A DNA stretch of 64,000 nucleotides. It comes from Oscillospiraceae bacterium (GTDB taxonomy: Bacteria > Bacillota > Clostridia > UMGS1810). The stretch is from contig SVJM01000009.1 in the NCBI GenBank assembly GCA_015068975.1, positions 1-64,000 of the forward strand, read 5' to 3'. Positions 38,713 through 64,000 of the stretch are shown here, in pieces; within the stretch, counting starts at the first letter, position 1, and each line of letters begins with the position of its first letter. Below the pieces are notes generated by a model. The model made no database searches. It was not told where the DNA came from and saw only the letters and a list, made by a program, of their open reading frames with translations. The position numbers and the translations under genes were made by a program.

Positions 38713-38836
38713 TGAATTTTCGTTTAACATAGATAGTTTCTGATGAAATTCGCACTTTTTTTAAAAAAATCTTTGCTTTTCAAGGTGTTTATCAGCAAAA
38801 AAGCATTTTTTGTAAACTATTAAGCACTAAAATATA

Positions 38837-38865
38837 TTGTAATAAAGCCTATTATCATTTATAGT
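38837..38865 (+). promoter_or_regulatory. Candidate promoter of esterase gene 3
   Basis: TTGTAA (38837-38842), 17-bp spacer and TATAGT (38860-38865), 50 bp before the start codon. The match is moderate. Confidence 0.5.
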
Positions 38866-38914
38866 TAATGTATATCTATAACATTATATCCTACAAAGAA
38901 AGGCGGAATACAAA

Positions 38915-41900
38915 ATGAAAAAAGTAATATCACTTTTGATGACACTAATTTTAGTACTTACATCTGTTGTAAGTATATCTATCCCATTGAGTGCGTCAGC
39001 AGCACAGGAGTATGTGGAAAAGTTTAATGCAGACTTCACCCAGTGGACTACAACCGCAGGTGTTACTGAAACCAAGACTTTTAAAAATCCATCAAACACA
39101 TCAAACTCTATGTCTATCACCACAGCAGGAGCGCTGACTGATAACCCTGAAGGTTATCCTCAGCCATCCTCAAGCGTAGAAGTGGTAAATAAATCTGACC
39201 TTGCAACTACATATCCTTTGGTTGCTGCAGATACTACTGCAACTTCAACGCTTGCAAAGTTTACTCAGACTGCAAAAATCGGTATGTTTCGTATGAGAGG
39301 TGCCTACACTGCGCTTACCGCTGATACAAGCATCCGCGTAACCTTCAGAATGTTTCTTACAGACATCTGCACAAAGGGTGTAAGCTATGATACAGACGGA
39401 ACAACTGTGCTTGAGCCTGTTAAGGATACAGAAGGTACTGTCAAAGAACTTACTATGTCTCTCGTACCTCAGAAAACAACTTCAAACTGTGGTACATCAA
39501 AAAGCATTACCGTTCCTGTAAATCAATGGGTAACAGTATCCGAGGTTCTCTCTGCAAAGACAGGTGCAGATGGTGTAAGACTCAGTATCGGTACTGTCAG
39601 CAGTGCTGCAAACTACACATGTAACTTCGCAGGAACAATCTTCTATGACGGAAACTTCAAGATAGAAGTGCTTGAAGAAATAGTGGCTCCTACAGAGGGC
39701 GATTATACAATGATTGCAAGATTTAACCCCGGTGATTCGACTATGACTGCGGCTTCCAAAGGAAGCGGTACTGCGCTGTTTTCTGAAAACACTGTAAATC
39801 ACGCTGCATCCAACGGTCACGCATCAGAACCTGCAAAGCAGACAGACACAAACGGAAAATTCAAGACTGCAACATCAACACTTGACACACAGATAAATCC
39901 ATCTACCCTTTCATCTACTGATTATCCGGGAATCGCAGATACAAAGGTATCATCATCAGGACTTATCGCAAGACTTAACCGTACTGCGGCATGCTCTATG
40001 ATAAGATTTAAAGATATCATTGACACAGGAATCTTTGCTGCAGGAGACCGCTTCAAAATGAAAGCATGGGTATATCTTGCAGATACATATTCAAGAGGCG
40101 AATATGAAACTCTCAATGAGGGTTCTTCTATAACAGATAAATCAGCTCAGAAGGATTCTACTGCAAAAACTGCAAAGATACGATACATATATTGCTCCAA
40201 TTCATCTTCAACAAATGCAGATGGTATTATGAAAACATTTGAACTGGAAGTCAACAAATGGCACCAGATCGAAATCTCCGGAACTGTAAAAGATGCACTT
40301 AATGCAGTCGGTGTAAGAATCGACCAGGCAAGTGACTGCTACGGCTCACCATATGCGGGAACATGGTTCCTCGGAAATATCGAAATGTATCATGCAGACA
40401 AGCTTCCTGAAAGAAATTCCGTAACAAACTGGAAAACTCTTTCCAACGTAGACTTTGAATCAGATAAAGCAGCTGTAAGCGGGGTCACATACACTGTAGA
40501 TTCTTCAGTAAAGGGTAGTATTCAGACTGTTGATTCACTGGTTAATGATTATCCTCAGTCAGAAATCGGTACTGCAGGACTTAATGTATACAAATTCTCA
40601 ATGAACAACTCTGCTGATTCTAAATTTAAAATCAACACAATCTTTGACAGTGCACAAATCGCCGCAGGCGATGTAATCAGAGTATCTGCAGACGTATTTC
40701 CTGCAGACCATACAGATGCAAACGCAAAAACTGCAAAGGTAAGAATGTTTCTTGCTGATACAGAAACTGAACCTATAGCGGATGATAAGTGCTCATCTGT
40801 AAACCTGAAGCTTGACGCATGGCAAAGAGTTGCATTTACATATACAGCAAGTGCTGATGACATAAGTGCTACTCAGGGTGTTATAATCGATGCGGCAGGA
40901 GAAACAGACTTTGCAAACACACTTATTATTTCTGATATAAAAACAGAAGTGTATAAAGCAGGAGAAGCTATCCCTACAGACCTGTCATATACAGAGGACT
41001 TCGAAGGATACTCCTACGCTACACAGACACATATTAATACCCCACACTACAGAACATTCGGATCAAACGGAGGAACTCTTACAATCGGGACAACAAATGC
41101 AACACTTACCGGAATGGTTCCTGCGTCCGGAACAAATGCTCTCGGAATCACAAATAGAGGCGGAAACAATACAGGTATCAAAATAAATGACATATTCCAG
41201 GGACTCCCTATTGAAGCTGATGTAGGAAAGACCTTCAGAATATCACTTAAGGTATATGCAGATAAATCTGCTCCATTATACAAGGAAAATGCAACAAGTG
41301 CCGCTAACAACACAACTGCACTTACAGATGCAGAAAAGGAAACTGTTACAGAGACAGCATTCAAGCTTTGTTACGGCGGTCCTGATGCTCAGTATTATAA
41401 ATACAGAACAGCTGCACTAAGTCTCACATCTGCAGTTGTTCCATTTGACACATGGACAACTATTTCAGGGGAATTAACCATTACCGAAGATATGCTTGAC
41501 AATGGAAGCACAGATACAACCAATAAGACAAATCCTCTTATTTCTTCCATAAGAATTGACCAGACAAACGCAAAAGGCGGACTGGAACAACCATTCTGTA
41601 ATACCTTCTACATTGATGATCTTACAGTATCTGAAGTACCACCTGCACAGTTCACAATGCCAAATGTATTTGGCTCAAATATGGTATTCCAGAGAAATAT
41701 GCCCTTTAGTATCTGGGGCTTTGCAACAGAGGACGGAAAGGTTATTACAGCAACTATCGGCACACAGACAAAAACCGCCACATCAAAAGACGGAAGATGG
41801 ACAATCACATTTGACCCTATGGACGTAGCAAGAAACCTTACTCTTAAAGTGTCAAGTCCGGGTGAAGATGATATCGAATTTACAAACATAGCAATCGGTG

Positions 41901-43468
41901 AGGTTATCCTTACAGCAGGACAGTCAAATATGAATGCAAAATTCTCAAGTCCTGTAAATGCAGGATATGAAGATGCACTGGAAATAAAGAATGACACATC
42001 AGTATTAAGCGATATAAGAGTGTTGAGAATGCCTACAAAAGGTCACCTTGACCTTCAGGAAGATGCAGATGTGAAATGGACAGTTGTTTCACTGTCTAAC
42101 ATTACATCACGCTCTGCAGTAGGATATGCGACAGCATATTATCTGGCGAAAGAAAAGAATATCCCTGTAGGCTTCATTGAAGCATGCACAGGCGGTCTTA
42201 CTGTAGAAGCATTTATGGATCTTGAAACCCTTAAATCCAGAGAAATGTATGAGGATTATTATATTGACTTCTACGAAAGACAGCATGCTTCGGGAATTGA
42301 CCCTGACACATGGAAATTCTATCCAACAGGTGTATACAATACTATGCTACATCCACTGAAAGGTATGACAATAGGCTCATGTGTATGGTATCAGGGTGGT
42401 AGTAACAGACCATTGGCTGATAATGGTTACTGCCCGCCAGTTAATTATGAATATCTTTTGTACGATTTCATAAATATGCTGAGGAAGAATTACAACAACG
42501 AAGATATGCCTTTCGTAGTATGTGAGCAAGCCAACCTTCCATACGATACTGTAAGAGACGTAAGACAGGCTCAGCTTAATACTATAATGAGAATGAGTAA
42601 TGACAAGGTATACTTTGTATCCACATCTGATACAGGCGCCACAAACTATGATGTGGGAATAGAAAATATGCTCCATCCGTCAAACAAAGTGCCTGTAGGA
42701 AAGAGAGCAGCACACTGCATTATGGCTGATAAATATGGATATGAAGGGGAATACTCAAGCCCATTATATGAAAATATGACAGTAGAAGGAAACAAAGCAA
42801 TCCTCACCTTCTCACATGCTGACGGACTTAAACAGGTAGCAAAAATCGAAGGCGAAACAGAAATCACAGGCTTTGAAATAAGCTCTGACGGAGAAAACTA
42901 TGTTAAAGCTAATGCTACACTTGGAGAAGATAACACAGTTATTGTATCAGCAGAAACAGTTTCAAATCCAACAACAGTAAGATACTGCTACAACACCTTC
43001 ACATATTATGATGCAGAAGGAAATCTCTGTTCAGGAAATGGTATTTCAGAATCAAAATTCAGAAATACATATGTGCCTGAAGGATGTGTAACCATCGGTC
43101 ACCTTGGAGGAAACCTTTATAATGGTGCGGATCTTCCGCTTCCACCATTCAAAGCAACTGTAATCAAACCTACTGTTACTTCTTACAGTAAGGAAACAAA
43201 GGATGACAAAATCCACTACACAGTAGAGCTTAAGAATACAGGTTTCTCATCAGGTAACCCACAGGTTATCGCCGCAGTTTACACTGACGGACAGCTTAAA
43301 TATATGAAATCCTTTGATACAAACTTTGCAACTCAGGATATAAGAAAAATTACTGATTCGTTTGATGCATCAATTGTAAATGCAGACAGTGAACTTAAGT
43401 TCTTCCTCTGGGATGGATTCGACAGGTTGAAACCATTCGAAAGCGCAAGGACGCTTACATTTAACTGA
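38915..43468 (+). CDS. Giant secreted multimodular SGNH esterase 3
   Basis: 1517 aa, with the same module order as esterase 1 and closely related to it and to esterase 4. A signal peptide (1-29, ending SASA) is followed by four beta-sandwich modules, the immunoglobulin-like lead-in and the SGNH domain with GQSNM (Ser1004), WYQGGSN at 1158-1164 and MLHPSNK (His1254). Block III has Gly where the classical family has Glu. The C-terminal module is nearly identical to genes 1 and 2. The ribosome site AAAGGCGGA is the same as for gene 1. No wall-anchor motif is visible, so it is probably released or held by its carbohydrate-binding modules. Confidence 0.82.
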   Translation: MKKVISLLMTLILVLTSVVSISIPLSASAAQEYVEKFNADFTQWTTTAGVTETKTFKNPSNTSNSMSITTAGALTDNPEGYPQPSSSVEVVNKSDLATTYPLVAADTTATSTLAKFTQTAKIGMFRMRGAYTALTADTSIRVTFRMFLTDICTKGVSYDTDGTTVLEPVKDTEGTVKELTMSLVPQKTTSNCGTSKSITVPVNQWVTVSEVLSAKTGADGVRLSIGTVSSAANYTCNFAGTIFYDGNFKIEVLEEIVAPTEGDYTMIARFNPGDSTMTAASKGSGTALFSENTVNHAASNGHASEPAKQTDTNGKFKTATSTLDTQINPSTLSSTDYPGIADTKVSSSGLIARLNRTAACSMIRFKDIIDTGIFAAGDRFKMKAWVYLADTYSRGEYETLNEGSSITDKSAQKDSTAKTAKIRYIYCSNSSSTNADGIMKTFELEVNKWHQIEISGTVKDALNAVGVRIDQASDCYGSPYAGTWFLGNIEMYHADKLPERNSVTNWKTLSNVDFESDKAAVSGVTYTVDSSVKGSIQTVDSLVNDYPQSEIGTAGLNVYKFSMNNSADSKFKINTIFDSAQIAAGDVIRVSADVFPADHTDANAKTAKVRMFLADTETEPIADDKCSSVNLKLDAWQRVAFTYTASADDISATQGVIIDAAGETDFANTLIISDIKTEVYKAGEAIPTDLSYTEDFEGYSYATQTHINTPHYRTFGSNGGTLTIGTTNATLTGMVPASGTNALGITNRGGNNTGIKINDIFQGLPIEADVGKTFRISLKVYADKSAPLYKENATSAANNTTALTDAEKETVTETAFKLCYGGPDAQYYKYRTAALSLTSAVVPFDTWTTISGELTITEDMLDNGSTDTTNKTNPLISSIRIDQTNAKGGLEQPFCNTFYIDDLTVSEVPPAQFTMPNVFGSNMVFQRNMPFSIWGFATEDGKVITATIGTQTKTATSKDGRWTITFDPMDVARNLTLKVSSPGEDDIEFTNIAIGEVILTAGQSNMNAKFSSPVNAGYEDALEIKNDTSVLSDIRVLRMPTKGHLDLQEDADVKWTVVSLSNITSRSAVGYATAYYLAKEKNIPVGFIEACTGGLTVEAFMDLETLKSREMYEDYYIDFYERQHASGIDPDTWKFYPTGVYNTMLHPLKGMTIGSCVWYQGGSNRPLADNGYCPPVNYEYLLYDFINMLRKNYNNEDMPFVVCEQANLPYDTVRDVRQAQLNTIMRMSNDKVYFVSTSDTGATNYDVGIENMLHPSNKVPVGKRAAHCIMADKYGYEGEYSSPLYENMTVEGNKAILTFSHADGLKQVAKIEGETEITGFEISSDGENYVKANATLGEDNTVIVSAETVSNPTTVRYCYNTFTYYDAEGNLCSGNGISESKFRNTYVPEGCVTIGHLGGNLYNGADLPLPPFKATVIKPTVTSYSKETKDDKIHYTVELKNTGFSSGNPQVIAAVYTDGQLKYMKSFDTNFATQDIRKITDSFDASIVNADSELKFFLWDGFDRLKPFESARTLTFN

Positions 43469-43482
43469 TACAAGTACATAAT

Positions 43483-43523
43483 AATTCCCCCGATGAACTG
43501 AAGTCATCGGGGGAATTTTTTTT
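43483..43523 (+). terminator. Terminator of esterase gene 3
   Basis: AATTCCCCCGATGA pairs perfectly with TCATCGGGGGAATT and is followed by eight T. Confidence 0.93.
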
Positions 43524-43559
43524 GATAAACAGCAGTATTTATCTACGAAATAAATTCTA

Positions 43560-43588
43560 TTGTATTTCTAGCTGCAATAATGTATAAT
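43560..43588 (+). promoter_or_regulatory. Promoter of esterase gene 4
   Basis: TTGTAT (43560-43565), 17-bp spacer and TATAAT (43583-43588), 47 bp before the start codon. Confidence 0.62.
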
Positions 43589-43635
43589 TAAACTAAGAAA
43601 GTTGATTTCATCTTATACAGAAAGGTCAAAAAATT

Positions 43636-46600
43636 ATGAAAAAATTTATATCTATTATGATGACACTCATTTTAGTACTTACTTCTGTGGTAAGTATATC
43701 TAGCCCTATGAGTGCCTCAGCAAAGCAGGGTTATGTGGAAAAGCTTAATGCAAACTACACACAGTGGTCTGCACCCGAAGGTGTTGGCGTAAAGAAGACT
43801 TTTGCCTGCCCTACATCCCCATCCAACACTATGACTTTTGTATCGGCAGGCGGACTGGATTCTAATCCAAAAGGTTATCCTCAGCCGGTAACAAGTGTTG
43901 AACTGGTAAACAAAAAAGATCTTTCGGCTACATATCCTAAGGTTTGCGAAGATAACAGTACAACAGATAAGCTTGTAAAATTCACTCAGAATGCAAACAT
44001 CGGTATGTTTCGTATGAAAGGCGCTTACCCTGCGCTCAGCAGCACTACAACCATACGTGTTACATTTAAAATGTTTATCACCGACATATGCACAAAGGCT
44101 ATAAGCTTTGATAAAGACGGAACAACTGTGCTTGATCCTGTAAAGGATACAAAGGGTACTGTAAAGGAAATCCCAATGTCACTTATTCCACAGAAAGCAA
44201 GTGCAAATTGCGGAGTACAGAAGGACATTAAAATCCCTGTAAATCAGTGGTACACAGTAACCGAAGAGCTTCAGGCAGACGTGGGAGCAAACGGTGTAAG
44301 ACTCAGTATCGGTACAGTAGCTGATGAACCAAGTTATAATTGTAATTTCCCGGGGACAATATTCTATGATGGAAACTTCAGAATAGATGTGTTTGAAGAA
44401 ATAGTAGCACCAAAAGAAGGCGATTATACTATGATTGCCAGATTTAACCCGGGTGATTCCGAAATGGATTCTCCATCCAAAGGAAGCGGCACTGCAATGT
44501 TTTCGGACAATACTGTAGGTCACAGCGCATCCATTGATCATACATCGGAGCCTGCAAAGCAGTCCGATGCAAATGGTAAATTCATAACTGCAGCATCAAC
44601 ACTTGATACAAAGATAAATCCATCTACCCTTTCATCTATTGATTATCCGGGAATCGCAGATACAAAGGTTTCTTCATCAGGTTTAATAGCAAGACTTAAC
44701 CGTACTGCAGCCTGCTCTGTGATAAGATTTACAGATATCATTGACAAGGGTAGCTTCAATACCGGAGACCGTTTTAAAATGAAAGCATGGATTTACATTG
44801 CAGATACATATTCAAGGGGTGAATATGACAGTCTTAATAAAACTTCAAAGGTAACAGACAAATCTGCCCAGAAAGATCCTGATGCAAAGACTGCAAAGGT
44901 AAGATATATCTACTGTCCTGATTCTAAATCAACAAATGCAGACGGCATTATGAAAACATATGAACTTGAAACATACAAATGGCACCAGATCGAAATCGAA
45001 GGAACTGTAAACAACGTACTCGATGCAGTTGACATAAAAATCGATCAGACATCTGATTGCTATGGTGATCCATATGCCGGCACATGGTTTTTGGGCAATA
45101 TAGAAATATATCACGCAGACAAAATTCCTGAAAGAAATGCAAATACAAACTGGAAAACTATTTCCAATGTGGATTTCGAATCAGAAAAGACGGCTATAAG
45201 CGATATAGCATATAGTGTAGAATCTTCACTCGACAGCAGTATTCAGACTATAGACTCACTGGTTAATGAATATCCTCAGTCAGAAATCGGCACAGCAGGA
45301 CTTAATGTGTATAAATTTTCAATGAATAATTCTGCTACTTCAAGGTTTAAAATCAATACAATCTTTGACAGTACAAAAATTGAGCCGGGCGATGTAGTCA
45401 GAATATCTGCAAGTATATTCCCTGCAGACCATACAAATACAAATGCAAAAACAGCAAAAGTAAGAATGTTCCTTGCAGATAAAGAAACATCACCTATAGC
45501 AGATGACAAATGCACATCTGTCAACTTAAAACTTGATGCATGGTCAAAAGTAGCATTTACATACACAGCAACTGCTGATGACATAAGTGCTACTCAGGGT
45601 GTTATGATCGATGCAGCAGGAGAAACAGACTTTGCAAACACACTTATTATTTCTGATATAAAAACAGAAGTGTATAAATCAGGAGATGCTATCCCTGAAA
45701 ACCTATCATATACAGAGGACTTCGAAGGATACTCCTACGCTACACAGACACATATTAATACCCCACACTACAGGACATTTGGCTCAAACGGAGGAACTCT
45801 TACAATCGGGACAACAAATGCAACACTCACCGGTATGGTTCCTGCGTCCGGAACAAATGCTCTCGGAATCACAAATAGAGGCGGAAACAATACAGGTATC
45901 AAAATAAATGACATATTTCAGGGTTATCCTATTTCATCTGACATAGGAAAGACCTTCAGAGTATCACTCAAGGTATATGCTGACAAATCCTATCCTTTGT
46001 ATAAGAAATCTGCAGAAAGTGCCGACAAAAACTTAACTGCACTTACCGATGCAGAAAAAGAAAGCGCGAAAGAAACCGCCTTCACCCTTTCTTATGGCGG
46101 TCCTGATGATAAGCATTATAAATACAGAACTGCATCAGAGAATATTGCAAATACTGTTGTGCCATTTAACACATGGACAACGATGTCAGGCGATATCACT
46201 ATTACAAAATCTATGATTGACAACGGTGATACTTCAGACAATGCATCTAACCCTCTTGTTTCATCCATAAGAATCGATCAGACAGGAGCATCAGGCGAAA
46301 CAGCACAACCAATATGCAACACATTCTACATTGATGATCTTACAGTTACAGAAGTACTTCCCGCAAAATTTACAATGCCGAAGGTATTTAGCTCAAATAT
46401 GGTATTCCAGAGAAATATGCCTTTTAAAATCTGGGGATTTGCAACAGAAGACAAAAAGAAAATCACAGCAACTATCGGCACACAGACAAAAACTACCACA
46501 TCTAAGGATGGCAGATGGGAAATAACCTTTGACCCTATGGATACAGCAAGAGACCTTACCCTTAAAGTGTCAAGTCCCGAAGAAGAGGATATTGTATTTA

Positions 46601-48186
46601 CAAACATAGCTATTGGCGAGGTAATCCTTACAGCAGGTCAGTCAAATATGAATGCGAAATTCTCAAGTCCTGTAAAAGCAGGATACGAAGATGCACTGGC
46701 TATAATGAACGATACATCTGTATTAAAAGACATAAGAGTGTTAAAGATGCCTACCAAAGGTCATCTTGATCCTCAGGATGATGTAAATGTGAAATGGACT
46801 GTTGTTTCAGAGTCTAATATCACATCACGTTCTGCGGTAGGATATGTGACTGCATATTATATTGCAAAGGAACAGAATATCCCCGTAGGCTTCATTGAAG
46901 CATGCACAGGCGGTCTTACTGTAGAAGCTTTTATGGATCTTGAAACTCTTAAATCAAGGGAAATGTATAAGGACTATTATATAGCATTCTACGAAAGACA
47001 GCATGCTTCAGGAATTGATCCTGACACCTGGAAATTCTATCCTACAGGCGTATACAATACTATGCTCCATCCACTTAAGGGAATGACAATTGGCTCATGT
47101 GTATGGTATCAGGGCGGAAGCAACAGACCAATGGCTGAAAACGGATATAGCCCTGCAATCAATTATGAATACCTTTTGTACGATTTCATACATATGATAA
47201 GAAGCTATCACAACAACAAAAATATGCCTTTCGTGGTATGTGAGCAAGCAAATCTTCCATACGACACCGTAAGAGACGTAAGACAGGCTCAGCTTAATAC
47301 CATATTGAGAATGGGCAATGACAAGGTATATTTTGTATCCACATCAGATGTGGGCGCCACAAACTATGATGTAGAAATAGAAAATATGCTTCATCCTTCA
47401 AACAAGGTTCCTGTAGGAAAGAGATCTGCTTTCTGTATTATGGCAGATAAATTTGGTTATGAAGGGGAATACTCAGGTCCGATATATGAAAATATAACTG
47501 TTGAAGGAAACAAAGCAATCCTTACCTTCTCACATGCTGACGGACTTAAACAGGTGGCAAAAATCGAAGGCGAAACAGAAATCACAGGCTTTGAAATAAG
47601 CTCCGACAAAGAAACATTTGTCAAAGCTAATGCTACACTCGGTGAAAACAACACCGTCATTGTATCAGCAGAAACAGTTTCAAATCCAACCACAGTAAGA
47701 TACTGCTACAACACCTTTACATACTATGATAAGGATGGAAATCTTCTTTCGGGAAACGGCATTTCTGAATCCAAATTCAGAACCGAATATATGCCCGAAG
47801 GATGCAAAACCATCGGTCACCTTGGTGGAAACCTTTATAATGGTGCAGATCTTCCTCTTGCACCGTTTATAGCAACTGTGATCAAGCCGGAGGTTACTTC
47901 ATGCAGTATAGAACCAAAGGAAACTGAAATCCACTACACAGCTACACTTAGCAACACTGATTTTTCAACAGGTGACAAGCTGGTTATTGCGGCTTTGTTT
48001 ACAGAAGGGCAGCTTAAGTATATGAAGATCTTTGATACAAAATCTGTAACTGAAGATACAATGACAATAAATTCTTCATTTGATGCTTCAACAGTAAATC
48101 CAAATAGCGAGCTCAAGTTCTTCCTATGGGATGGATTCGACAATTTGAAACCATTCGAAAGTGCAAAGACACTTACATTTAAATAA
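43636..48186 (+). CDS. Giant secreted multimodular SGNH esterase 4
   Basis: 1516 aa, with the same architecture: signal peptide (1-29), four beta-sandwich modules, lead-in, and SGNH domain with GQSNM (Ser1003), WYQGGSN from Trp1157 and MLHPSNK (His1253). Along most of its length it resembles esterase 3, but around nt 44640-44715 (second module) it is identical to gene 1 rather than gene 3, a gene-conversion-like patch. Its C-terminal module has diverged from the nearly identical ones of genes 1-3 (for example TVIKPEVTSCSIEPKE). The ribosome site is AGAAAGGTC. Last gene of the array, ending in a strong terminator. Confidence 0.82.
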   Translation: MKKFISIMMTLILVLTSVVSISSPMSASAKQGYVEKLNANYTQWSAPEGVGVKKTFACPTSPSNTMTFVSAGGLDSNPKGYPQPVTSVELVNKKDLSATYPKVCEDNSTTDKLVKFTQNANIGMFRMKGAYPALSSTTTIRVTFKMFITDICTKAISFDKDGTTVLDPVKDTKGTVKEIPMSLIPQKASANCGVQKDIKIPVNQWYTVTEELQADVGANGVRLSIGTVADEPSYNCNFPGTIFYDGNFRIDVFEEIVAPKEGDYTMIARFNPGDSEMDSPSKGSGTAMFSDNTVGHSASIDHTSEPAKQSDANGKFITAASTLDTKINPSTLSSIDYPGIADTKVSSSGLIARLNRTAACSVIRFTDIIDKGSFNTGDRFKMKAWIYIADTYSRGEYDSLNKTSKVTDKSAQKDPDAKTAKVRYIYCPDSKSTNADGIMKTYELETYKWHQIEIEGTVNNVLDAVDIKIDQTSDCYGDPYAGTWFLGNIEIYHADKIPERNANTNWKTISNVDFESEKTAISDIAYSVESSLDSSIQTIDSLVNEYPQSEIGTAGLNVYKFSMNNSATSRFKINTIFDSTKIEPGDVVRISASIFPADHTNTNAKTAKVRMFLADKETSPIADDKCTSVNLKLDAWSKVAFTYTATADDISATQGVMIDAAGETDFANTLIISDIKTEVYKSGDAIPENLSYTEDFEGYSYATQTHINTPHYRTFGSNGGTLTIGTTNATLTGMVPASGTNALGITNRGGNNTGIKINDIFQGYPISSDIGKTFRVSLKVYADKSYPLYKKSAESADKNLTALTDAEKESAKETAFTLSYGGPDDKHYKYRTASENIANTVVPFNTWTTMSGDITITKSMIDNGDTSDNASNPLVSSIRIDQTGASGETAQPICNTFYIDDLTVTEVLPAKFTMPKVFSSNMVFQRNMPFKIWGFATEDKKKITATIGTQTKTTTSKDGRWEITFDPMDTARDLTLKVSSPEEEDIVFTNIAIGEVILTAGQSNMNAKFSSPVKAGYEDALAIMNDTSVLKDIRVLKMPTKGHLDPQDDVNVKWTVVSESNITSRSAVGYVTAYYIAKEQNIPVGFIEACTGGLTVEAFMDLETLKSREMYKDYYIAFYERQHASGIDPDTWKFYPTGVYNTMLHPLKGMTIGSCVWYQGGSNRPMAENGYSPAINYEYLLYDFIHMIRSYHNNKNMPFVVCEQANLPYDTVRDVRQAQLNTILRMGNDKVYFVSTSDVGATNYDVEIENMLHPSNKVPVGKRSAFCIMADKFGYEGEYSGPIYENITVEGNKAILTFSHADGLKQVAKIEGETEITGFEISSDKETFVKANATLGENNTVIVSAETVSNPTTVRYCYNTFTYYDKDGNLLSGNGISESKFRTEYMPEGCKTIGHLGGNLYNGADLPLAPFIATVIKPEVTSCSIEPKETEIHYTATLSNTDFSTGDKLVIAALFTEGQLKYMKIFDTKSVTEDTMTINSSFDASTVNPNSELKFFLWDGFDNLKPFESAKTLTFK

Positions 48187-48992: not shown

Positions 48993-50249
48993 TTATTCTC
49001 CTTTTTTCTTCTTAGAAGCAGGACATTTAAGAGTAACTGCTCTCTCATACAATGGCGCAAGGAGTTTTTCTTCTCCAAGTCCTCTCATCATAAGTCCGTC
49101 AGAGGCAATCTCTACAAGGTCATAGAGAAAATCCGAAAGGAAATCCTCGTCAAAAATCTTGGTCATATCGTATCCTTCAGATACCATCTTACGAAGCTCA
49201 CTGTTTGAAAGGTTTATCTTTTGTTCATTTAAAAATCCTTCTACTGTGTCCATTGCCTCATCCATATTGTAAAGGATACCCAGATTGAATGCCACAGGAG
49301 AGAAGCCTTCACCCAAAGGTTGCTGACAATCTCCCCTTAATTCAAGAGTACCTCTCTGTGTAATCTCCACAGTCTTGAAGGATAGATACTGTGCTATATC
49401 TTCATTTTTTGCATTGTAAGATGGGTTTTCGAAATATTCTCTGATGTTTACAGGTGTGATTGTTTTATACTCCCCATCTCTTATGATATTGAACATATCC
49501 TTTGTAAGAAAATAATCAATAATATCATCAACTGTTTCAAATTCCTCATCAACTTTGCCCGTGATATTTCTGCATTTGGAAAATCCGCTCTCTTCCCAGA
49601 GTAAATCTCTGTAACAGATTGTCTTAGACTTGTCAAATGAAGGAGAATTTGAAAAAAGCATACATCTTGCGAAATCAAGCTTTGCAAATAATGTATATGC
49701 AAAGGGCAAATCTTCAATATTTACATCAAGATGTGTCTGCACACTGGATAAATATGCAGGAAAATCCTTTATTTTGCCATCATCTGTATTTTCTTTAAGA
49801 AACTTTGCTACCATTTGATATGTGGAAAAAGGTACAGGATTGGTAGTGATATATTTTTTGTTTGGATTTGTACCAAGTCCCAGCATCTTATATGAAAACT
49901 TATCAAAATACTCAGAGACAATCTTAAAAAGTCTGTCAAACCGTTCCTTTATCCGATGAAGATTGTCTGAATACATCATAGAGAACTCAATATTATTGTA
50001 TGAATTATCATAGGACACACAGTCCCCGTTTTTGTCTGTAACAAATAGAATAATACCATTCTCTTCTATATCGGTTTTGAAGCCGTAATTCTCTATAAGA
50101 TAATCAAGAAGTCCCCTTGCAACTTCCACATCAATATCCTTCTTTTTTGTATTTACAAGAGGAAATTCAAGCTCACAACCCACATTTCCCATTTCCTTTG
50201 ATTCAAATGGTTTAAGGAAACTGTCATATATAATTTTTGAAGCGTTCAT
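48993..50249 (-). CDS. Glutamate-cysteine ligase-like protein (GCS2 type)
   Basis: A 418-aa ATP-dependent ligase of the carboxylate-amine family. The N-terminal VGCELEFPLVN motif corresponds to the ATP/metal-binding glutamates of plant-type and proteobacterial gamma-glutamylcysteine synthetases; ELRGDCQQPLGEGF occurs near residue 300. It would make gamma-glutamylcysteine, but there is no glutathione synthetase or fused gshF region nearby, so another gamma-glutamyl product is possible. The start is ATG 50249 with GAGGTG upstream. Co-transcribed with the thioesterase gene, an unusual pairing. Confidence 0.72.
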   Translation of the reverse strand: MNASKIIYDSFLKPFESKEMGNVGCELEFPLVNTKKKDIDVEVARGLLDYLIENYGFKTDIEENGIILFVTDKNGDCVSYDNSYNNIEFSMMYSDNLHRIKERFDRLFKIVSEYFDKFSYKMLGLGTNPNKKYITTNPVPFSTYQMVAKFLKENTDDGKIKDFPAYLSSVQTHLDVNIEDLPFAYTLFAKLDFARCMLFSNSPSFDKSKTICYRDLLWEESGFSKCRNITGKVDEEFETVDDIIDYFLTKDMFNIIRDGEYKTITPVNIREYFENPSYNAKNEDIAQYLSFKTVEITQRGTLELRGDCQQPLGEGFSPVAFNLGILYNMDEAMDTVEGFLNEQKINLSNSELRKMVSEGYDMTKIFDEDFLSDFLYDLVEIASDGLMMRGLGEEKLLAPLYERAVTLKCPASKKKKGE

Positions 50250-50302
50250 GTTCTGCACCTCACAATAAAAGAAATTATATCAAAAAGAAAATTTACTGTC
50301 AA

Positions 50303-55338: not shown

Positions 55339-55638
55339 AAGGGAATGTAAAAAAACTCCAGATCGCAAAAAGGCATAGATTATACATAAGTCAAAAACCT
55401 GAATGCACAATAAAACTTACAAATTACTCATTATGTGGGAAATATTACATTTTTATGTAATATTTCCTCTTTTTTTGTGCCTTTTTGCTACGCATAAACT
55501 TCGCCTCTCGGTGTATCGCATACACCTTCGGGTAACCCGAAACCAAAGGTTTCGGCTCAGTTTCTCCTATCACGAAGTCTTTTTTCTATCCCCTTAACTC
55601 AACAAACAGGGACTGTAAAAATGATTTTTACAGTCCTT
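55339..55638 (+). repeat. 300-bp hairpin-rich intergenic element, copy C
   Basis: Fills the gap between the convergent metH and partner-protein genes. It is nearly identical to copy B in the same orientation, with GCAAAAAGGC (55365-55374) and GCCTTTTTGC (55479-55488) around the long AT-rich stem, and three serial hairpins after it. The right-end stem GGACTGTAAAAA/TTTTTACAGTCC probably terminates the gene ending at 55649. The outer bases ACAAGGG and CCTTGT are complementary to each other, whereas copy B has AATAAGGG and CCCCTTATT. Confidence 0.88.
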
Positions 55639-55648
55639 GTTGTTTATA

Positions 55649-57745
55649 TTATGGAGTCACTTTAAGTCCATTTGCTACTGCACCTTTTTCTACAATAATA
55701 GTAGAAGGAAGTGTGGTGATATCTATATCTTTTCCATAGTTTATAATCTGAAGATCCTTTATCTCCACTACCTGCTTCATAGCGCCAAATCTGAATGAAG
55801 CAGAACCCATTTTGTCAAGTGCTTTAAAGGGCATATATGCTGTAGTCCATTCACTTGTCACTTTTGTTCTTGCGAAAGATGCCTTAGGATAATTTTTGCC
55901 TTCTGCCTGAATCTGTGTCTTGATATATCCTTCGCCATTCTCTCCGCCATCTTTCAGACGAACCTTAAATGTAAGCATACATACATCATCCAATGCCATC
56001 AATGCGGCAAGGCCTGTTTTGTAAGTAATAGTAACAGATAAATCCTTGCCTGCTTCGTTGGATGTAATAACTGCCACATCACCTGATGTCTTTAATTTAC
56101 TTGTCTTTACACCTAACAAATCAGAAGTTGTGGCAACTACCTTGCCACCTTCGGGAAGGTTTGCATCCTTTTCTACTTCAGGAGCAACCACAGGTGTTGA
56201 CGAATTGTCTGTTGTAGTTTCTTCCTTATTTACAGGTGTATTCTTATCGATTACACCGTTTGCAACGGCATTTTTCTCTACTATGATAGTAGATGGCAGT
56301 GATTTGATATCTACATCTTTTCCGTAGTTTATAATCTGGAGATCCTTGATTTCCACTACCTGCTTCATAGCACCAAATCTGAATGCTGCAGAAGCCATCT
56401 GGTCAAGTGCTTTAAACGGCATATATGCTGTAGTCCATTCACTTGTCACTTTTGTTCTTGCGAAAGATGCCTTAGGATAATCTTTGCCTTCTGCCTGAAT
56501 CTGCGTCTTGATATATCCTTCACCATTCTCTCCGCCATCTTTCAGACGAACCTTAAATGTAAGCATACATACATCATCCAATGCCATCAATGTGGCAAGG
56601 TCTTTTTTGTAAGTAATAGTAACAGATAAATCCTTGCCTGCTTCGTTGGATGTAATAACTGCCACATCACCTGATGTCTTTAATACACTTGTCTTTACAC
56701 CTAACAAATCAGAAGGTGTGACAACTACCTTGCCACCTTCGGGAAGGTTTGCATCCTTTTCTGCTTCAGGAGCAACCACAGGTGTATCCTTATCGATTAC
56801 ACCGTTTGCAACGGCATTTTTCTCTACTATGATAGTAGATGGCAGCGATTTGATATCTACATCTTTTCCGTAGTTTATAATCTGGAGATCCTTTATTTCC
56901 ACTACCTGCTTCATAGCACCAAATCTGAATGAAGCAGAAGCCATCTGGTCAAGTGCTTTAAATGGCATATATGCGGTAGTCCATTCGCTTGTCACCTTTG
57001 TTCTTGCAAAAGATGCTTTCGGACTATTCTTACCTGTCGCCTGAATCTGTGTCTTGATATATCCTTCACCATTTTCTCCGCCACTCTTAAGTCGCACCTT
57101 AAATGAAAGCATACATACATCATCCAATGCCATCAATGTGGCAAGGTCTTTTTTGTAAGTAACAGTAACAGATGTATCCTTGTCTGCCTGTGCAACTGTG
57201 ATTGTAGCAGTCTTTCCGTCAGACTGTAAGAATTTACTCTTTGTACCAAGGAAATCTTCAGGATATACTACAATATTTCCGCCTTTTGGAAGTGCATCAT
57301 CCTCAGGTGCAGCTTCTTTGATATCACCGATAATAACAGTTCTTGTATCTGCCTGCCAATCCACCTTACAGCCAAGGCTTTCTGCAATAAATCTTACGGG
57401 AACAAGTGTTCTTCCGTCGATAATCTGTGCAGGTACATCGAGATTTTTTGCTTCACCATTTACTTTGGCAACAGGATGACCCACTCTCAATGTAATAATA
57501 ACATCCGGAGTTTCTGCCACAACTGTCTTTGTCACTTCTACCCATGTAATTTTAGCACCAAATGCTTCGAATATACCACGCATAGGCACCATCGTTCTGC
57601 TGTCGATAATCTGCGGCATAACATCAAATGTCTTTGGTTCTGAATTGATAATAATCTTTATACCATCATCTGCCAAAACAGAAAATGTAAGAAAAGATGA
57701 AAGTACAAGAATTGTCGCAATCAATAGTGATAATACTTTTTTCAT
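55649..57745 (-). CDS. Secreted non-catalytic partner protein: copper-amine-oxidase-N domain plus three repeats
   Basis: 698 aa with a signal peptide (1-25, ending VLA). Residues about 27-140 form two 'copper amine oxidase N-terminal'-type units (GRTLVPVRFIAESLGCKV), a domain frequent on surface proteins of Clostridia. Three beta-rich repeats of about 160 residues follow, at about 151-312, 333-493 and 529-698, each ending VVEIKDLQIINYGKD. They resemble the CBM-like module inside the neighbouring xylanases. There is no catalytic domain. Linkers are rich in Thr/Pro/Glu. It lies 14 bp after the GH10 gene and is surely co-transcribed. It probably binds xylan or the cell surface; the function is inferred. 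Confidence 0.75.
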   Translation of the reverse strand: MKKVLSLLIATILVLSSFLTFSVLADDGIKIIINSEPKTFDVMPQIIDSRTMVPMRGIFEAFGAKITWVEVTKTVVAETPDVIITLRVGHPVAKVNGEAKNLDVPAQIIDGRTLVPVRFIAESLGCKVDWQADTRTVIIGDIKEAAPEDDALPKGGNIVVYPEDFLGTKSKFLQSDGKTATITVAQADKDTSVTVTYKKDLATLMALDDVCMLSFKVRLKSGGENGEGYIKTQIQATGKNSPKASFARTKVTSEWTTAYMPFKALDQMASASFRFGAMKQVVEIKDLQIINYGKDVDIKSLPSTIIVEKNAVANGVIDKDTPVVAPEAEKDANLPEGGKVVVTPSDLLGVKTSVLKTSGDVAVITSNEAGKDLSVTITYKKDLATLMALDDVCMLTFKVRLKDGGENGEGYIKTQIQAEGKDYPKASFARTKVTSEWTTAYMPFKALDQMASAAFRFGAMKQVVEIKDLQIINYGKDVDIKSLPSTIIVEKNAVANGVIDKNTPVNKEETTTDNSSTPVVAPEVEKDANLPEGGKVVATTSDLLGVKTSKLKTSGDVAVITSNEAGKDLSVTITYKTGLAALMALDDVCMLTFKVRLKDGGENGEGYIKTQIQAEGKNYPKASFARTKVTSEWTTAYMPFKALDKMGSASFRFGAMKQVVEIKDLQIINYGKDIDITTLPSTIIVEKGAVANGLKVTP

Positions 57746-57759
57746 TTCAAATTCTCCTT

Positions 57760-60111
57760 TTAATCAAGTGTGATTTCAAGGACATTTTCATATCCTTTGT
57801 GGAATGCAGCCATAACAGTTTTTGTCTTTCCGTTATGAGTTACTGTCACATCATAGTTTCCGTAGAAACCATTGATTGTACCTTCTCCCTTTGCATCAGT
57901 TTTTACCTTTGCATCGTGGGTAAAGCACTTATTATAATAAAGATCCAATATCTGCTCCCCTGCTTTGGTAAGAGAGTAATCATTATTGACAATTACTTTG
58001 TTTGATTTTTCGCCAGATTTTCTGTATCCCCAGAGACAAATTGTATTTATATGTTCATTTGCCAGAGCCATAATGAACATATCTCTGGCATAATTTGCAT
58101 CGTATATTTCATCACCTGAATATATGGTAAACTCTGTAAGGGCAATGTTTCCGCCATAAGTTTCTACAAGCTCATTGAACATCCTGTCAAATTCAGGAGC
58201 GGAAACCCATTTTGTTCCCAAATGACACTGAAAACCCAATGAATCAAATGTGTTTTCATTTTTAATAAAATTCTCTATTGCATTTTTATAATGAATTTTA
58301 TCTGTGTATATTCTGTTGCCCTCAAGATAGAAAAGCTCGGAATTTGGGTTCATCTCTCTTGCCCATTTAAAAATCTTGTCAAAATAATGAGGTCCTATAT
58401 TTCTGTATATACCTGTTTCAGTAGAGCCTTGTCCTGTGATAACCTCGTTGACAACATCCCACTGATAAATCTCTCCTGCAAATTTGTCAGAAACTTTGTA
58501 TATCCAGTCTTTTACTCTTGTATCCACATACTCTATATCATCATAATTATCCACAACATCTCTTGGAATAAGAATTGTAGGTGTGTTTGTCATATGATAA
58601 TCCATTATCATAGTATGGCCTCTTAAGTATATCATACCGTTGCTTCTTGCCACATTTACGATTTCTCTTGCTATCTTTCCGTCATCTTCTTCATATGGTC
58701 CCCATTTCATATTGTGCTCTACAACTGCACCATTGAAATACTTCGCCATATTTCTGTTGTATTCTTCATGGCCTTCTCTGTGTGGAAGCATTCCTGATCC
58801 AAGTGTTGTACCAAGGGGAAGTGCAGATTCAAACATATCGAAGTTTACATCTGCATCAGGAATCACATTTCCATCTTTATCCTTTACAACCACTTTGAAA
58901 TCGCCTTTTCTTACCTGGGGTATTCTTTCCAGTGCTTCCATTCTCCATGGAGAATCATTGGAATAATCTTCCCTGACTGAACCGTCATCTGAAGGCAACG
59001 GATAATCACCGAGGACTTGTTGACCGTAGTTTATAATCTGCACATCAGCAATATCTATTACCTGAGGAGCAAAACAGTAGCCCAGTCTTATAGCAAGCTC
59101 ATCATGAGAATCTGCATATTCAATAGGGAAATAGACGGTATGCCAGTTTTTTGTGATATAAGCAGGTTTAAAAAGAATCTTCTTGAAATTTCCGGTTTTA
59201 AGCTCCTGAATCTGAGGATATATCTGTCCCATACCTGCCTCACCGCCGTCAACAAGACGAAGCTTACAGGTGAAGAGAAGCTTATCTCCCGGCTGACATT
59301 TACCTTCAAGTGCGTTGCCAAAGCAAGCTACAAACTGATTTGTATTTTCAGGAACTATATCGGTATGTACTCTCATAGCCTCAGTAAATGTCTGACCTTC
59401 TACTGCTACCCTTTCGGCATAACCCCACTTAGTTTTGAGCTGATTTACACCCGGTTTTTCTATAGAAAAGTTATTAAGAAACTCTTCCGCAGAAAATACT
59501 GTATTTCCCACAGGCAAAAGTGACAATACATCATGGGGGATTTCTTCTATTTTCTCTTCTTCATAATAAATGATATCTTTTATATCATTAGACTTGGTAA
59601 ATTCCCTTGGGATCTCTCTGTGGAGTGTACTTGGAAGAAGAGCAAGTTTATCGGATACTGCAACCTTTGTAAGATAATCACTTGTGATTTCTACTGTTTT
59701 TGTGTCGCCATTCCAGTTAACATTCTCACCAAATGACTCAGCAATAAATCTTACAGGAACCATGGTTCTTCCATTTACAATGGTAGCAGGCACATCAAGT
59801 TTACTTTCCTGCTCAATTCCATCCACATAATATGTATCGGAATCGATTCTTAATTTGATATACTTTCTGTCACGGCTGCCTACAACAGTTCTTGTAGGTT
59901 CTATCCATGTGACTTCTGCACCAAGTGCTTCAAATATGGCACGCATAGGTACAAGTGTTCTGCCGTTTACTATAACAGGCATCACATCATAGGTCTGTTC
60001 TTTGCCGTTGATTACAACATTTATGCCATCATCTGCAAGAACCGACGTGGTAAAAGCAAAGGATGATATAATCATAACCAGGCAAATAAGCATTGATAAT
60101 ACTTTTTTCAT
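57760..60111 (-). CDS. Secreted GH10 endo-1,4-beta-xylanase with surface and CBM-like domains
   Basis: 783 aa from the ATG at 60111 (GAGGAGA eight bases upstream). It consists of a signal peptide (1-26), a copper-amine-oxidase-N domain (about 30-145), a CBM-like module (about 205-370, ending VIDIADVQIINYG), the GH10 catalytic domain (about 395-720) and a short C-terminal beta domain. Catalytic residues are Glu556 (acid/base, in WDVVNE) and Glu660 (nucleophile, in ALTEF); the GH10 substrate motif VEHNMKWGPYE is present. It cleaves the xylan backbone. First gene of a xylanase-partner unit that is duplicated to the right. Confidence 0.92.
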   Translation of the reverse strand: MKKVLSMLICLVMIISSFAFTTSVLADDGINVVINGKEQTYDVMPVIVNGRTLVPMRAIFEALGAEVTWIEPTRTVVGSRDRKYIKLRIDSDTYYVDGIEQESKLDVPATIVNGRTMVPVRFIAESFGENVNWNGDTKTVEITSDYLTKVAVSDKLALLPSTLHREIPREFTKSNDIKDIIYYEEEKIEEIPHDVLSLLPVGNTVFSAEEFLNNFSIEKPGVNQLKTKWGYAERVAVEGQTFTEAMRVHTDIVPENTNQFVACFGNALEGKCQPGDKLLFTCKLRLVDGGEAGMGQIYPQIQELKTGNFKKILFKPAYITKNWHTVYFPIEYADSHDELAIRLGYCFAPQVIDIADVQIINYGQQVLGDYPLPSDDGSVREDYSNDSPWRMEALERIPQVRKGDFKVVVKDKDGNVIPDADVNFDMFESALPLGTTLGSGMLPHREGHEEYNRNMAKYFNGAVVEHNMKWGPYEEDDGKIAREIVNVARSNGMIYLRGHTMIMDYHMTNTPTILIPRDVVDNYDDIEYVDTRVKDWIYKVSDKFAGEIYQWDVVNEVITGQGSTETGIYRNIGPHYFDKIFKWAREMNPNSELFYLEGNRIYTDKIHYKNAIENFIKNENTFDSLGFQCHLGTKWVSAPEFDRMFNELVETYGGNIALTEFTIYSGDEIYDANYARDMFIMALANEHINTICLWGYRKSGEKSNKVIVNNDYSLTKAGEQILDLYYNKCFTHDAKVKTDAKGEGTINGFYGNYDVTVTHNGKTKTVMAAFHKGYENVLEITLD

Positions 60112-60149
60112 ATTCATTTCTCCTCTTCTTAAAATTTATTTGTAATACT

Positions 60150-60229
60150 ATTATACACTATTAAAATCGTATATGTATATATACAAAATTGACATTTTGA
60201 CTATATTTTTTATACAATTTTGACATTTT
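60150..60229 (-). promoter_or_regulatory. Xylanase unit promoter with paired 19-bp direct repeats
   Basis: TATAAT lies at 60150-60155 (minus strand) with a poor -35 (ATACAT, 60173-60178). Just upstream, TATACAAAATTGACATTTT (60180-60198) and TATACAATTTTGACATTTT (60211-60229) match at 17 of 19 positions and start 31 bp apart, about three helical turns. Weak -35 plus adjoining repeats suggests an activator-dependent promoter. Confidence 0.65.
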
Positions 60230-60265
60230 TTGAGAATTGCTTTATGAGGACAGCATTATCAATGC

Positions 60266-60312
60266 ACAAAAAAACAGTGCAATAAATTTTTTTCACTAAA
60301 ATTTTTGCACTG
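60266..60312 (-). terminator. Terminator of the second partner-protein gene
   Basis: CAGTGCAA pairs with TTGCACTG (60275-60312, A/T-rich loop) and is followed by seven T on the minus strand. It lies 11 bp after the stop at 60323. Confidence 0.8.
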
Positions 60313-60322
60313 CTTTTATTTA

Positions 60323-61876
60323 TTATGGAGTCACTTTAAGTCCATTTGCTACTGCACCTTTTTCTACAATAATAGTAGAAGGAAGTGTGGTGATATCTAC
60401 ATCTTTTCCGTAGTTTATAATCTGAAGGTCCTTTATTTCCACTACCTGTTTCATAGCACCAAATCTGAATGCTGCAGAAACCATTTTGTCAAGGGCTTTA
60501 AACGGCATATATGCTGTAGTCCATTCACTTGTCACTTTTGTTCTTGCGAAAAGAGCTTTCGGACTATATTCTCCTTCTGCCTGAATCTGTGCTTTGATAT
60601 ATCCTTCGCCACCTTCTCCCCCATCTTTAAGACGCACTTTGAATGTAAGCATACATACATCATCCATATTCATCAAAGCTGCAAGTCCGCTTTTGTAGCT
60701 AACAATAACAGATGTGTCCTTTCCCGCTTCAGCTGATGTGATAACTGCTGCACCTTCCTCTGCTTTAAGAGATTTCGATTTGGTATTCAGCATATCAGAA
60801 GGTGTGACAACTACCTTGCCACCTTCAGGAAGGTTTGCATCCTTTGCAACTTCAGGTGCAACAACAGGTGCTGCCGGTGTAGTTGTTGTTTCTTCTTTCT
60901 TTGTTGTGGTAGAAGCTGCCTTGTCGATTACACCATTTGCAATTGCCTTATCTTCTGCGATAATTGTAGACGGAAGACTTTTTACATCAAAATCTTTTCC
61001 GTAGTTTGTAATCTGAAGATCCTTGATTTCCACTACCTGTTTCATAGCACCAAATCTGAATGCGGCACTCATCATTTTGTCAAGTGCCACAAAAGGCATA
61101 TATGCTGTAGTCCATTCCCCTGTCACCTTTGTTCTTGCAAAAAGGGCTTTTGGATTATGCTCGCCTTCTGCCTGAATCTGTGCCTTGATATATCCTTCAC
61201 CATTTTCTCCGTCAGATACAAGTCTTACCTTGAAAGAAAGCATACATACGTCGCCCTCCTTCATCATGCCTGAGAGTCCTGTTCTGTATGTAAGCATTAC
61301 AGAGGTGTCAGCGCCCTTCTCTGCTACTGTAACTGTAGCAATATTGCCATCAGACTTCATAGTTTTTGCTTTTGCATTAAGCAAGTCTTCAGGAAATACT
61401 ACAATCTGTCCACCTTCGGGAAGCTTGTCATCCTTGGGTGCTGCTTCCTTGGAATTGCCAATGACAACAGTCTTTGTATCTGCCTGCCATTCTACCTTAC
61501 AACCAAGGCTCTCTGCTATAAATCTTACAGGAACAAGGGTTCTTCCGTCGATTATCTGTGCAGGTACATCAAGATTTTTAGTTTCACCATTTACCTTAGC
61601 AGTGGTCTTTCCTACTGTAAGTGTAATAGCCACATCAGGAGTCTCTGCCACAACTGTCTTTGTCACATCTACCCATGTAATTTCAGCACCAAATGCTTCG
61701 AATATACCACGCATAGGCACCATTGTTCTGCCGTCGATAATCTGCGGCATAACATCAAAGGTCTTTGGTTCTGAATTGATAATAATCTTTATACCATCAT
61801 CTGCCAAAACAGAAAATGTAAACAAAGATGAAAGCATCAAAATAACCGTCAATAATAATGTTGTTATTCTTTTCAT
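60323..61876 (-). CDS. Secreted non-catalytic partner protein with two repeats
   Basis: 517 aa, a paralog of the 698-aa partner at 55649. It has a signal peptide (1-25), a copper-amine-oxidase-N domain (about 27-140) and two CBM-like repeats (about 151-310 and 348-517), separated by a linker rich in Thr, Glu, Pro and Ala (residues about 320-345). The N-terminal 140 residues and the final repeat are almost identical to the other partner; the difference is one repeat fewer. It begins 15 bp after the second GH10 gene and shares its transcript. No catalytic residues are recognised. Confidence 0.75.
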   Translation of the reverse strand: MKRITTLLLTVILMLSSLFTFSVLADDGIKIIINSEPKTFDVMPQIIDGRTMVPMRGIFEAFGAEITWVDVTKTVVAETPDVAITLTVGKTTAKVNGETKNLDVPAQIIDGRTLVPVRFIAESLGCKVEWQADTKTVVIGNSKEAAPKDDKLPEGGQIVVFPEDLLNAKAKTMKSDGNIATVTVAEKGADTSVMLTYRTGLSGMMKEGDVCMLSFKVRLVSDGENGEGYIKAQIQAEGEHNPKALFARTKVTGEWTTAYMPFVALDKMMSAAFRFGAMKQVVEIKDLQITNYGKDFDVKSLPSTIIAEDKAIANGVIDKAASTTTKKEETTTTPAAPVVAPEVAKDANLPEGGKVVVTPSDMLNTKSKSLKAEEGAAVITSAEAGKDTSVIVSYKSGLAALMNMDDVCMLTFKVRLKDGGEGGEGYIKAQIQAEGEYSPKALFARTKVTSEWTTAYMPFKALDKMVSAAFRFGAMKQVVEIKDLQIINYGKDVDITTLPSTIIVEKGAVANGLKVTP

Positions 61877-61891
61877 ATTATTTTTCTCCTT

Positions 61892-64000
61892 TTAGTCAAG
61901 TGTTATTTCAAGGACATTTTCATATCCTTTGTGGAATGCAGCCATAACAGTTTTTGTTTTTCCGTTATGAGTTACTGTCACATCATAATTTCCGTAGAAA
62001 CCGTTAATTGCACCTTCGCCATTTGCATCGGTTTTTACCTTTGCATCGTGGGTAAAGCACTTATTGTAGAAAAGATCCATCACTTGTTCACCAGCTTTGG
62101 TAAGAGTGTAGTCTGTATTTACCAAAGGTTTATTTGAGGTGGCTTTTGTTTTCTGGAATCCCCAGAAGAAAAATGTGTTTACATTTTCATTTGCAAGACA
62201 GGTGATAAGGAAATCTCTTGTATAATTTGCATCGTACACTTCATCCCCTGTATAAATGGTATACTCTGTAATTGCGATATTTCCACCATATTTGTTTACA
62301 AGCTCATTAAACATCTTTTCGTGCTCTGTAGGAGCAATCCACTGTGTACCGAAATGTGCCTGGAAGCCTAAGGAATCAAACTTGTTTTCGTTTTTGAAAA
62401 GATTATTTACAGCATTTGTGTACTGGATGTTTTTGTCATATATTCCACCGCCTTCAAGATAGAAAAGCTCGGAATCGGGGTTCATTTCTCTTGCCCACTT
62501 AAATATTTTGTCATAATAATGTGGTCCTACATTTCTGTAAATACCTGAATCGTGAGAACCTTCTCCTGTGATGATTTCATTTGCTACATCCCATTGATAT
62601 ATTTCTCCTGCAAACTTATCAGAAACTTTGTATATCCAGTCTTTTACTCTTGTATCCACATAGTTTATATCATCGTAGCTGTCAACAAGATCCTTTGGAA
62701 GAAGGATTGTAGGTGTGGCTGTCTTATGATAATCCATTATCATAGTATGACCTCTTAAGTAGATCATTCCGTTATTTCTTCCAATATTTACAAGCTCTCT
62801 TGCTCTCTTTCCGTCATCTTCTTCATATGGTCCCCATTTCATATTGTGCTCTACAACTGCACCATTGAAATATTTCCACATATTTTTATTGTGCTCATCT
62901 GACCCTTTGGTCTGCGGAAGATGGGGTGTATTTAAGATTGAGCCAAAAGGAATGGCGGATTCGAACATATCGAAGTTTACATCTGCATCGGGAATAACAT
63001 TGCCGTCCTTGTCCTTAACTACTACCTTGAAATCGCCTTTTCTTATCTTTTCGATTCTTCCAAGTGCTTCCTTTCTCCATGGAGCATCGTTCAGAAGCTC
63101 ATCCTTGATTTCTCCGTTATCTTCAGGAAGAACATAGTCGCCAAGAACCTGTGGTCCGTAGTTTATAAGCTTCACATCTGCAATATCTATTACCTGTGGA
63201 GCATAGCAATATCCGAACCTTATACTGAAGTTGTCATTTGCTTCTGTATATTCAATAGGGAAATAGATGGTATGCCAGTTTTTTGTAACAGTTACAGGCT
63301 TAAAGAGAATCTTCTTGAATTTCCCGGAAATAATCTCCTGAATCTGAGGATAGATCTGCCCTGCACCTGCCATTCCGCCTTCTACAAGACGAACCTTACA
63401 GGTAAAGAGAAGCTTGTCTCCCACATTACATTTACCTTCAAGTACATTGCCGTATGTTGATACAAATTTGTTTGTGGCTTCAGGTACCTTTTCGGTATGT
63501 ACTCTCATAGCCTCAGTAAATGACTGACCTTCAACAGTTACCTTTTCTGCATAACCCCACTCTGCTTTAAGGTTATTCTTACCCGCTTCTTCAAAAGAAA
63601 AATTGGTTATAAATTCTTCAGGAGTGAACAATACCTCTCCTGCAGGAAGCATTGACAGAATGTCCTGTGGGATATCTGCTTTTTTCTCTTCATCATAATA
63701 GATAATGTCATAAATATCATTTGACTTGGTAAATTCCCTTGGGATATCTCTGTGAAGTGTACTTGGAAGAAGAGCAAGTTTATCGGATACTGCAACCTTA
63801 TTAAGATAATCACTTGTGATTTCTACTGTTCTTGTGTCATTATTCCAGTTAACCTTCTCACCAAATGACTCTGCAATAAATCTTACAGGCACCATAGTTC
63901 TTCCGTTTACGATAGTAGCAGGTACATCAAGCTTCTTTTCCTGTTCAATTCCATCCACATAATATGTATCGGAATCGATTCTCAGCTTTATATACTTTCT
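61892..64000 (-). CDS. Secreted GH10 endo-xylanase, second copy (5'-truncated by window edge)
   Basis: 703 residues are visible; the frame is open to the window edge, so the signal peptide and start of the copper-amine-oxidase-N domain are missing. The remaining order is the end of the surface domain (GRTMVPVRFIAESFGEKV), a CBM-like module, GH10 with WDVANE (acid/base Glu) and AITEY (nucleophile Glu), and the short C-terminal beta domain, which is identical over its last 40 residues to the first xylanase. Paralogous to the gene at 57760 throughout. Divergence is highest in the loop after the CBM-like module, so substrate preference may differ. Confidence 0.92.
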   Translation of the reverse strand, partial: RKYIKLRIDSDTYYVDGIEQEKKLDVPATIVNGRTMVPVRFIAESFGEKVNWNNDTRTVEITSDYLNKVAVSDKLALLPSTLHRDIPREFTKSNDIYDIIYYDEEKKADIPQDILSMLPAGEVLFTPEEFITNFSFEEAGKNNLKAEWGYAEKVTVEGQSFTEAMRVHTEKVPEATNKFVSTYGNVLEGKCNVGDKLLFTCKVRLVEGGMAGAGQIYPQIQEIISGKFKKILFKPVTVTKNWHTIYFPIEYTEANDNFSIRFGYCYAPQVIDIADVKLINYGPQVLGDYVLPEDNGEIKDELLNDAPWRKEALGRIEKIRKGDFKVVVKDKDGNVIPDADVNFDMFESAIPFGSILNTPHLPQTKGSDEHNKNMWKYFNGAVVEHNMKWGPYEEDDGKRARELVNIGRNNGMIYLRGHTMIMDYHKTATPTILLPKDLVDSYDDINYVDTRVKDWIYKVSDKFAGEIYQWDVANEIITGEGSHDSGIYRNVGPHYYDKIFKWAREMNPDSELFYLEGGGIYDKNIQYTNAVNNLFKNENKFDSLGFQAHFGTQWIAPTEHEKMFNELVNKYGGNIAITEYTIYTGDEVYDANYTRDFLITCLANENVNTFFFWGFQKTKATSNKPLVNTDYTLTKAGEQVMDLFYNKCFTHDAKVKTDANGEGAINGFYGNYDVTVTHNGKTKTVMAAFHKGYENVLEITLD

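Follow-up and report, generated by a model that had tools for sequence, protein, structure and literature searches.

Two tandem two-gene units, each consisting of a gene for a GH10 xylanase and a gene for a secreted protein without enzyme domain (here termed partner), are located on the minus strand (ORF positions) of the 64-kb stretch of DNA analysed, hereafter the window. The same pairing recurs in the genome of this uncultured gut-type bacterium (2.35 Mb, 91 contigs, 89 % complete), amounting to six GH10-partner pairs, each encoded on one strand with gaps of 3–15 bp. The partner is rather likely a carbohydrate-binding helper acting in trans and kept at the surface through its CuAO_N1 domain, as suggested by (i) the recurrence of the pair, (ii) the kinship of fused and unfused modules, (iii) the CBM fold, (iv) operon signals, (v) purifying selection and (vi) the catalytic glutamates. 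Accordingly envisaged, the first gene of the unit would code for a GH10 endo-xylanase that is secreted, probably active and a member of a divergent subfamily, and the second for a secreted protein composed of CBM-type modules only, behind CuAO_N1. The partner would provide in trans what five related xylanases possess in cis, i.e., an extra C-terminal module; its several glycan-binding sites would hold xylan near the enzyme, CuAO_N1 would keep both proteins at the cell surface or wall, and substrate would be delivered to the enzyme by the partner.

Gene order and domain layout of the two units (Table 1) agree with the initial annotation, which had described partners with three and two repeats, devoid of an enzyme domain, sharing CuAO_N1 with the xylanases and following these after 14 and 15 bp. 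In Pfam scans of the four window proteins, CuAO_N1 was found in all four and GH10 solely in the two xylanases (E-values of 2.5e-35 and 7.5e-34, passing the curated cut-off), while the partner repeats (~160 aa, 68–91 % mutual identity) matched no named family. The acid/base and the nucleophile glutamate are both present in the window GH10 xylanase. The 5′ end of the gene for xylanase 2 is lost at the window edge, and the frame has not yet closed where the contig ends (64117). The gap between xylanase 2 and partner 2 (61877–61891) contains the same Shine-Dalgarno-like motif AAAAGGAG as that of the other unit, and the terminator of partner 2 is formed by a long stem, rich in A/T and including a CAGTGCAA/TTGCACTG part, with T7 after it. 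On account of the short Shine-Dalgarno-bearing gaps, the hairpin after each partner and the promoter-like site, each unit reads as a bicistronic operon.

Table 1. Features of the two tandem GH10-partner units and their putative expression signals (window positions)
Feature	Position	Strand	Remarks
Intrinsic-terminator-like hairpin after partner 1	55610..55636	-	MFE -19.3, z -6.1
Partner 1, non-catalytic	55649..57745	-	698 aa; CuAO_N1 and three CBM-like modules behind a signal peptide (recognised by inspection)
CBM-like module 3 of partner 1	55670..56158	-	
CBM-like module 2 of partner 1 (modelled)	56264..56746	-	
CBM-like module 1 of partner 1	56810..57292	-	
CuAO_N1 domain of partner 1 (modelled)	57317..57673	-	similar to the N-terminal domain of E. 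coli amine oxidase
14-bp gap	57746..57759	-	Shine-Dalgarno-like AAAAGGAG for partner 1; without terminator
GH10 xylanase 1	57760..60117	-	785 aa; CuAO_N1, module, GH10, C-terminal beta domain
GH10 catalytic domain of xylanase 1	57928..58953	-	both catalytic Glu present
N-terminal-type CBM-like module of xylanase 1	59002..59514	-	
CuAO_N1 domain of xylanase 1	59674..60036	-	Pfam
Promoter-like site TATACA-18-TATAAT before xylanase 1	60150..60179	-	consensus match only
Intrinsic terminator after partner 2	60268..60317	-	MFE -17.9, z -3.5
Partner 2, non-catalytic	60323..61876	-	517 aa; CuAO_N1 and two CBM-like modules behind a signal peptide (recognised by inspection)
CBM-like module 2 of partner 2	60344..60832	-	
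CBM-like module 1 of partner 2	60941..61423	-	
CuAO_N1 domain of partner 2	61448..61804	-	Pfam
GH10 xylanase 2	61892..64000	-	CuAO_N1, CBM-like module, GH10, small C-terminal beta domain

The two unit copies share 76 % (enzymes) and 78 % (partners) amino acid identity, with YN00 values of 0.95 and 0.76 for dS and of 0.15 and 0.20 for dN/dS, respectively; dN/dS ranges from 0.09 to 0.30, both for enzymes and for partners. Purifying selection thus acts on the partner as well, and the duplication of the unit is old and genuine, not an assembly repeat.

Elsewhere in the window, the plus strand encodes four proteins in tandem (29475–48186), each about 1,510 aa long and bearing a SASA-type acetylesterase domain around residue 1000; the large remainder of these proteins is without Pfam name. 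A 421-aa protein encoded on the minus strand (48993–50258) has no Pfam match at 0.001.

Two of the six pairs belong to the window (contig C6), one each is located on C13 and C36, and two on C90. The paired GH10s fall into two distant GH10 clades, as judged from FastTree supports and from the same groups in the IQ-TREE topology (IQ-TREE was used for topology, support values are from FastTree). The six pairs are paralogous and hence do not represent six independent origins, and about 56 of 62 GH10s in this genome have no partner, which weighs against the helper reading. Two further partners (C27:12111 and C71, the latter near a contig end) were seen without adjoining GH10. The conserved pairing claimed in the initial annotation is found again within the organism's own genome, but the genome search proposed there yielded no stand-alone partner in any of 15 genomes from the same order, among them that of a sister genus with 27 GH10s (G004, MAG Oscillospiraceae bacterium isolate SIG430), nor in a class sample. 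The pairing was observed in the one genome of this genus analysed and may be restricted to this strain, and no PF07833-tagged GH10 systems were found in the open-access literature.

The CBM-like character ascribed to the repeats was recovered by structure prediction. AlphaFold with the seven window modules as input yielded a beta sandwich (pLDDT 77, pTM 0.74), and the matches of this model in the PDB belong mostly to CBM families 16, 4, 22 and 29 (Foldseek, E 4e-6 to 1e-3, TM about 0.4–0.6). Judged from the model, the partner repeats are predicted to fold as CBM-type jelly rolls. Pfam CBM_4_9 was matched by 3 of 11 members of the module family and not in whole-protein scans of the window partners. 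A profile search with the module gave weak matches (E 0.035–0.81) to a laminarinase and to xylanase entries, several of which are named as CBM4 modules in the structure search.

The partner repeats had initially been equated with the module inside the xylanase. The two are indeed homologous, but only about 30 % identical, and the module tree groups the partner modules with the C-terminal modules of five other GH10s in an exact split (UFBoot 96), outside of which the N-terminal xylanase modules fall. Since partner and C-terminal GH10 modules form one clade, the same module follows a GH10, either fused or in a separate protein. The closest relatives of the window GH10s carry the module in fused form (C20:121949, C17:120396, C82:12039), and among the order relatives and the class sample it lies within a GH10 ORF in every case inspected, which comprises all but a few weak matches. 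This fused/unfused pattern is the best evidence for partner and enzyme working together.

The CuAO_N1 domain of the window proteins is a PF07833 domain with the fold of E. coli amine oxidase D1 (Pfam and model), the modelled domain of partner 1 superimposing on the N-terminal domain of that enzyme with an rmsd of 1.3–1.4 Å over 74 residues. In one GH10 (C43:9061), SLH repeats stand in place of CuAO_N1, and this replacement fits with CuAO_N1 as a putative retention module at the surface or wall. SLH repeats were not detected by Pfam on the four window proteins, although SLH proteins occur elsewhere in the genome. CuAO_N1 is also present in other protein contexts: C68:16532-19090 (L039) encodes a protein in which CuAO_N1 and a partner-type module come after a tyrosine-phosphatase-like domain, and at C27:12111-23758 (L033) six secreted-type CuAO_N1 proteins, all devoid of an enzyme domain and most of them with partner-type modules, form an array flanked by cpn60-family and alanyl-tRNA synthetase genes.

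A physical complex of enzyme and partner, i.e., a two-subunit xylanase with the partner carrying the binding modules, is possible but rather unlikely. CuAO_N1–CuAO_N1 contact would hold it together or, as regards the pairs on C13, C36 and C90, an 87-aa C-terminal domain of the xylanase. The latter domain is, among the genome stretches examined, confined to the four GH10s of the C13/C36/C90 clade, which are devoid of CuAO_N1 and each paired with a CuAO_N1-bearing partner; moreover, the tight operons favour co-production, and a PF07833 domain dimerises the Paenibacillus superoxide dismutase PaSOD (PMC10432803), which at the same time weakens the reading of CuAO_N1 as a wall anchor. However, CuAO_N1 of the present proteins has two half-units, resembles E. 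coli amine oxidase and is poorly matched by the PaSOD structure, with internal pairing perhaps satisfied already, while the 87-aa extension is confounded with one clade and may be merely clade-specific.

Similar non-catalytic CuAO_N1 proteins away from GH10, namely the C27 array and the lone C71 partner, could point to a general surface coat or adhesin tying cells to plant fibre, with GH10 adjacency reflecting only co-regulation and tandem duplication. This is improbable in view of 6 of 8 strict partners lying directly behind GH10 (naive chance about 2e-8, uncorrected for shared ancestry) and of the same module being also fused to GH10s. Descent of the partner from a xylanase by decay and loss of the GH10 domain, as the common N-terminal CuAO_N1 and the module homology (37 % identity between partner and xylanase over the shared part) might imply, is very improbable and was rejected by the module tree, the more so as the frames are intact and under purifying selection and the modules have multiplied. 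A scaffold or cellulosome was rejected as well, because no dockerin is encoded in the 89 % complete genome; Pfam scans of the partners revealed no cohesin. Of the function initially suggested for the partner, the cellulosome-free scaffold is therefore without support, whereas the more modest role of a helper in trans is favoured by recurrence, selection, fold and the fused/unfused pattern.

For such a helper, the closest precedent is the non-cellulosomal Ruminococcus albus 7 with 34 CBM37 proteins lacking a catalytic domain (PMC4300822). Both are cellulosome-free fibre degraders with one lineage-typical module across many secreted enzymes and with binding-only proteins alongside enzymes. In contrast to R. 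albus, the module here is CBM4/22-like, the shared tag is CuAO_N1, and the binding-only protein shares its operon with one specific GH10 gene; the binding-only strategy itself is already known, its GH10-operon form differs. CBM4 and CBM22 modules of GH10 xylanases (2y64, 4xup, 1h6x) are likewise jelly rolls on GH10, whereas here the module is also repeated in a separate enzyme-free protein and most copies are too divergent for Pfam CBM_4_9. SusD/SGBP-type surface glycan-binding partners from xylan loci of Bacteroidetes are also binding-only, encoded with the enzyme and hold glycan at the surface, but represent unrelated protein families, and the present host is clostridial. With 7d88-type GH10s, the enzymes have in common the N-terminal start (WR.EA..RI), the small C-terminal beta domain and the conserved catalytic core; the match spans only the GH10 and C-terminal parts, the aligned chain having neither CuAO_N1 nor module. 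Unlike in the 7d88-type, Ser or Thr occupies the D235-equivalent position in 56 of 63 GH10 copies. Several subsite positions (W84 and D235 equivalents) deviate from the norm, and the substrate may therefore be other than plain xylan.

The paired enzymes are part of a large GH10 complement. The whole genome contains 64 GH10 matches above Pfam's cut-off (e.g., loci L031-L088) and 96 CuAO_N1 matches, and own domain models applied to stretches of the genome retrieved 66 GH10 ORFs or fragments, 43 of which have the order CuAO_N1, module, GH10, C-terminal beta domain. Both catalytic glutamates are kept in 61 of 63 aligned copies, one or both being gone in C54:6626 and C65:19107. The paralogues share a median identity of 39 %; the highest nucleotide identity between any two copies (89 %) together with uniform GC content (0.39 versus 0.38 for the window) rules out an assembly or strain-mix artefact behind the count, and contamination is ruled out by the age of the paralogues and the uniform GC. 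The expansion is a real radiation of old paralogues. Among 399 genomes of the phylum, first-look GH10 candidates number 67 here and 18 in the next highest genome (first-look counts were compared, since the phylum run scored only five candidates per genome); within the order, GH10 is absent from 11 of 16 genomes. A report of a comparable GH10 count was not found in the open-access literature. The spirochaete Treponema sp. MAG Md513_bin18 (L117) possesses the same type of protein (module, GH10, C-terminal domain; GH10 39 % identical), perhaps through transfer between gut bacteria.

With about 6 % of the 2.35-Mb genome consisting of GH10 paralogues (own estimate from about 64 genes of 2.3 kb), the GH10 load is far beyond that of the phylum sample and needs an explanation, be it a variety of substrates, dosage or positional specialisation. 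The occurrence of the module fused to or separate from the same enzyme family allows direct tests of what a CBM does in cis and in trans. One may also speculate, though this is quite unlikely, that more than 60 secreted GH10s and detachable binding subunits docked via a dedicated C-terminal domain constitute a cohesin-free surface assembly; if so, detachable binding subunits would represent a cohesin-free way of bringing enzyme and binding modules together at the surface.
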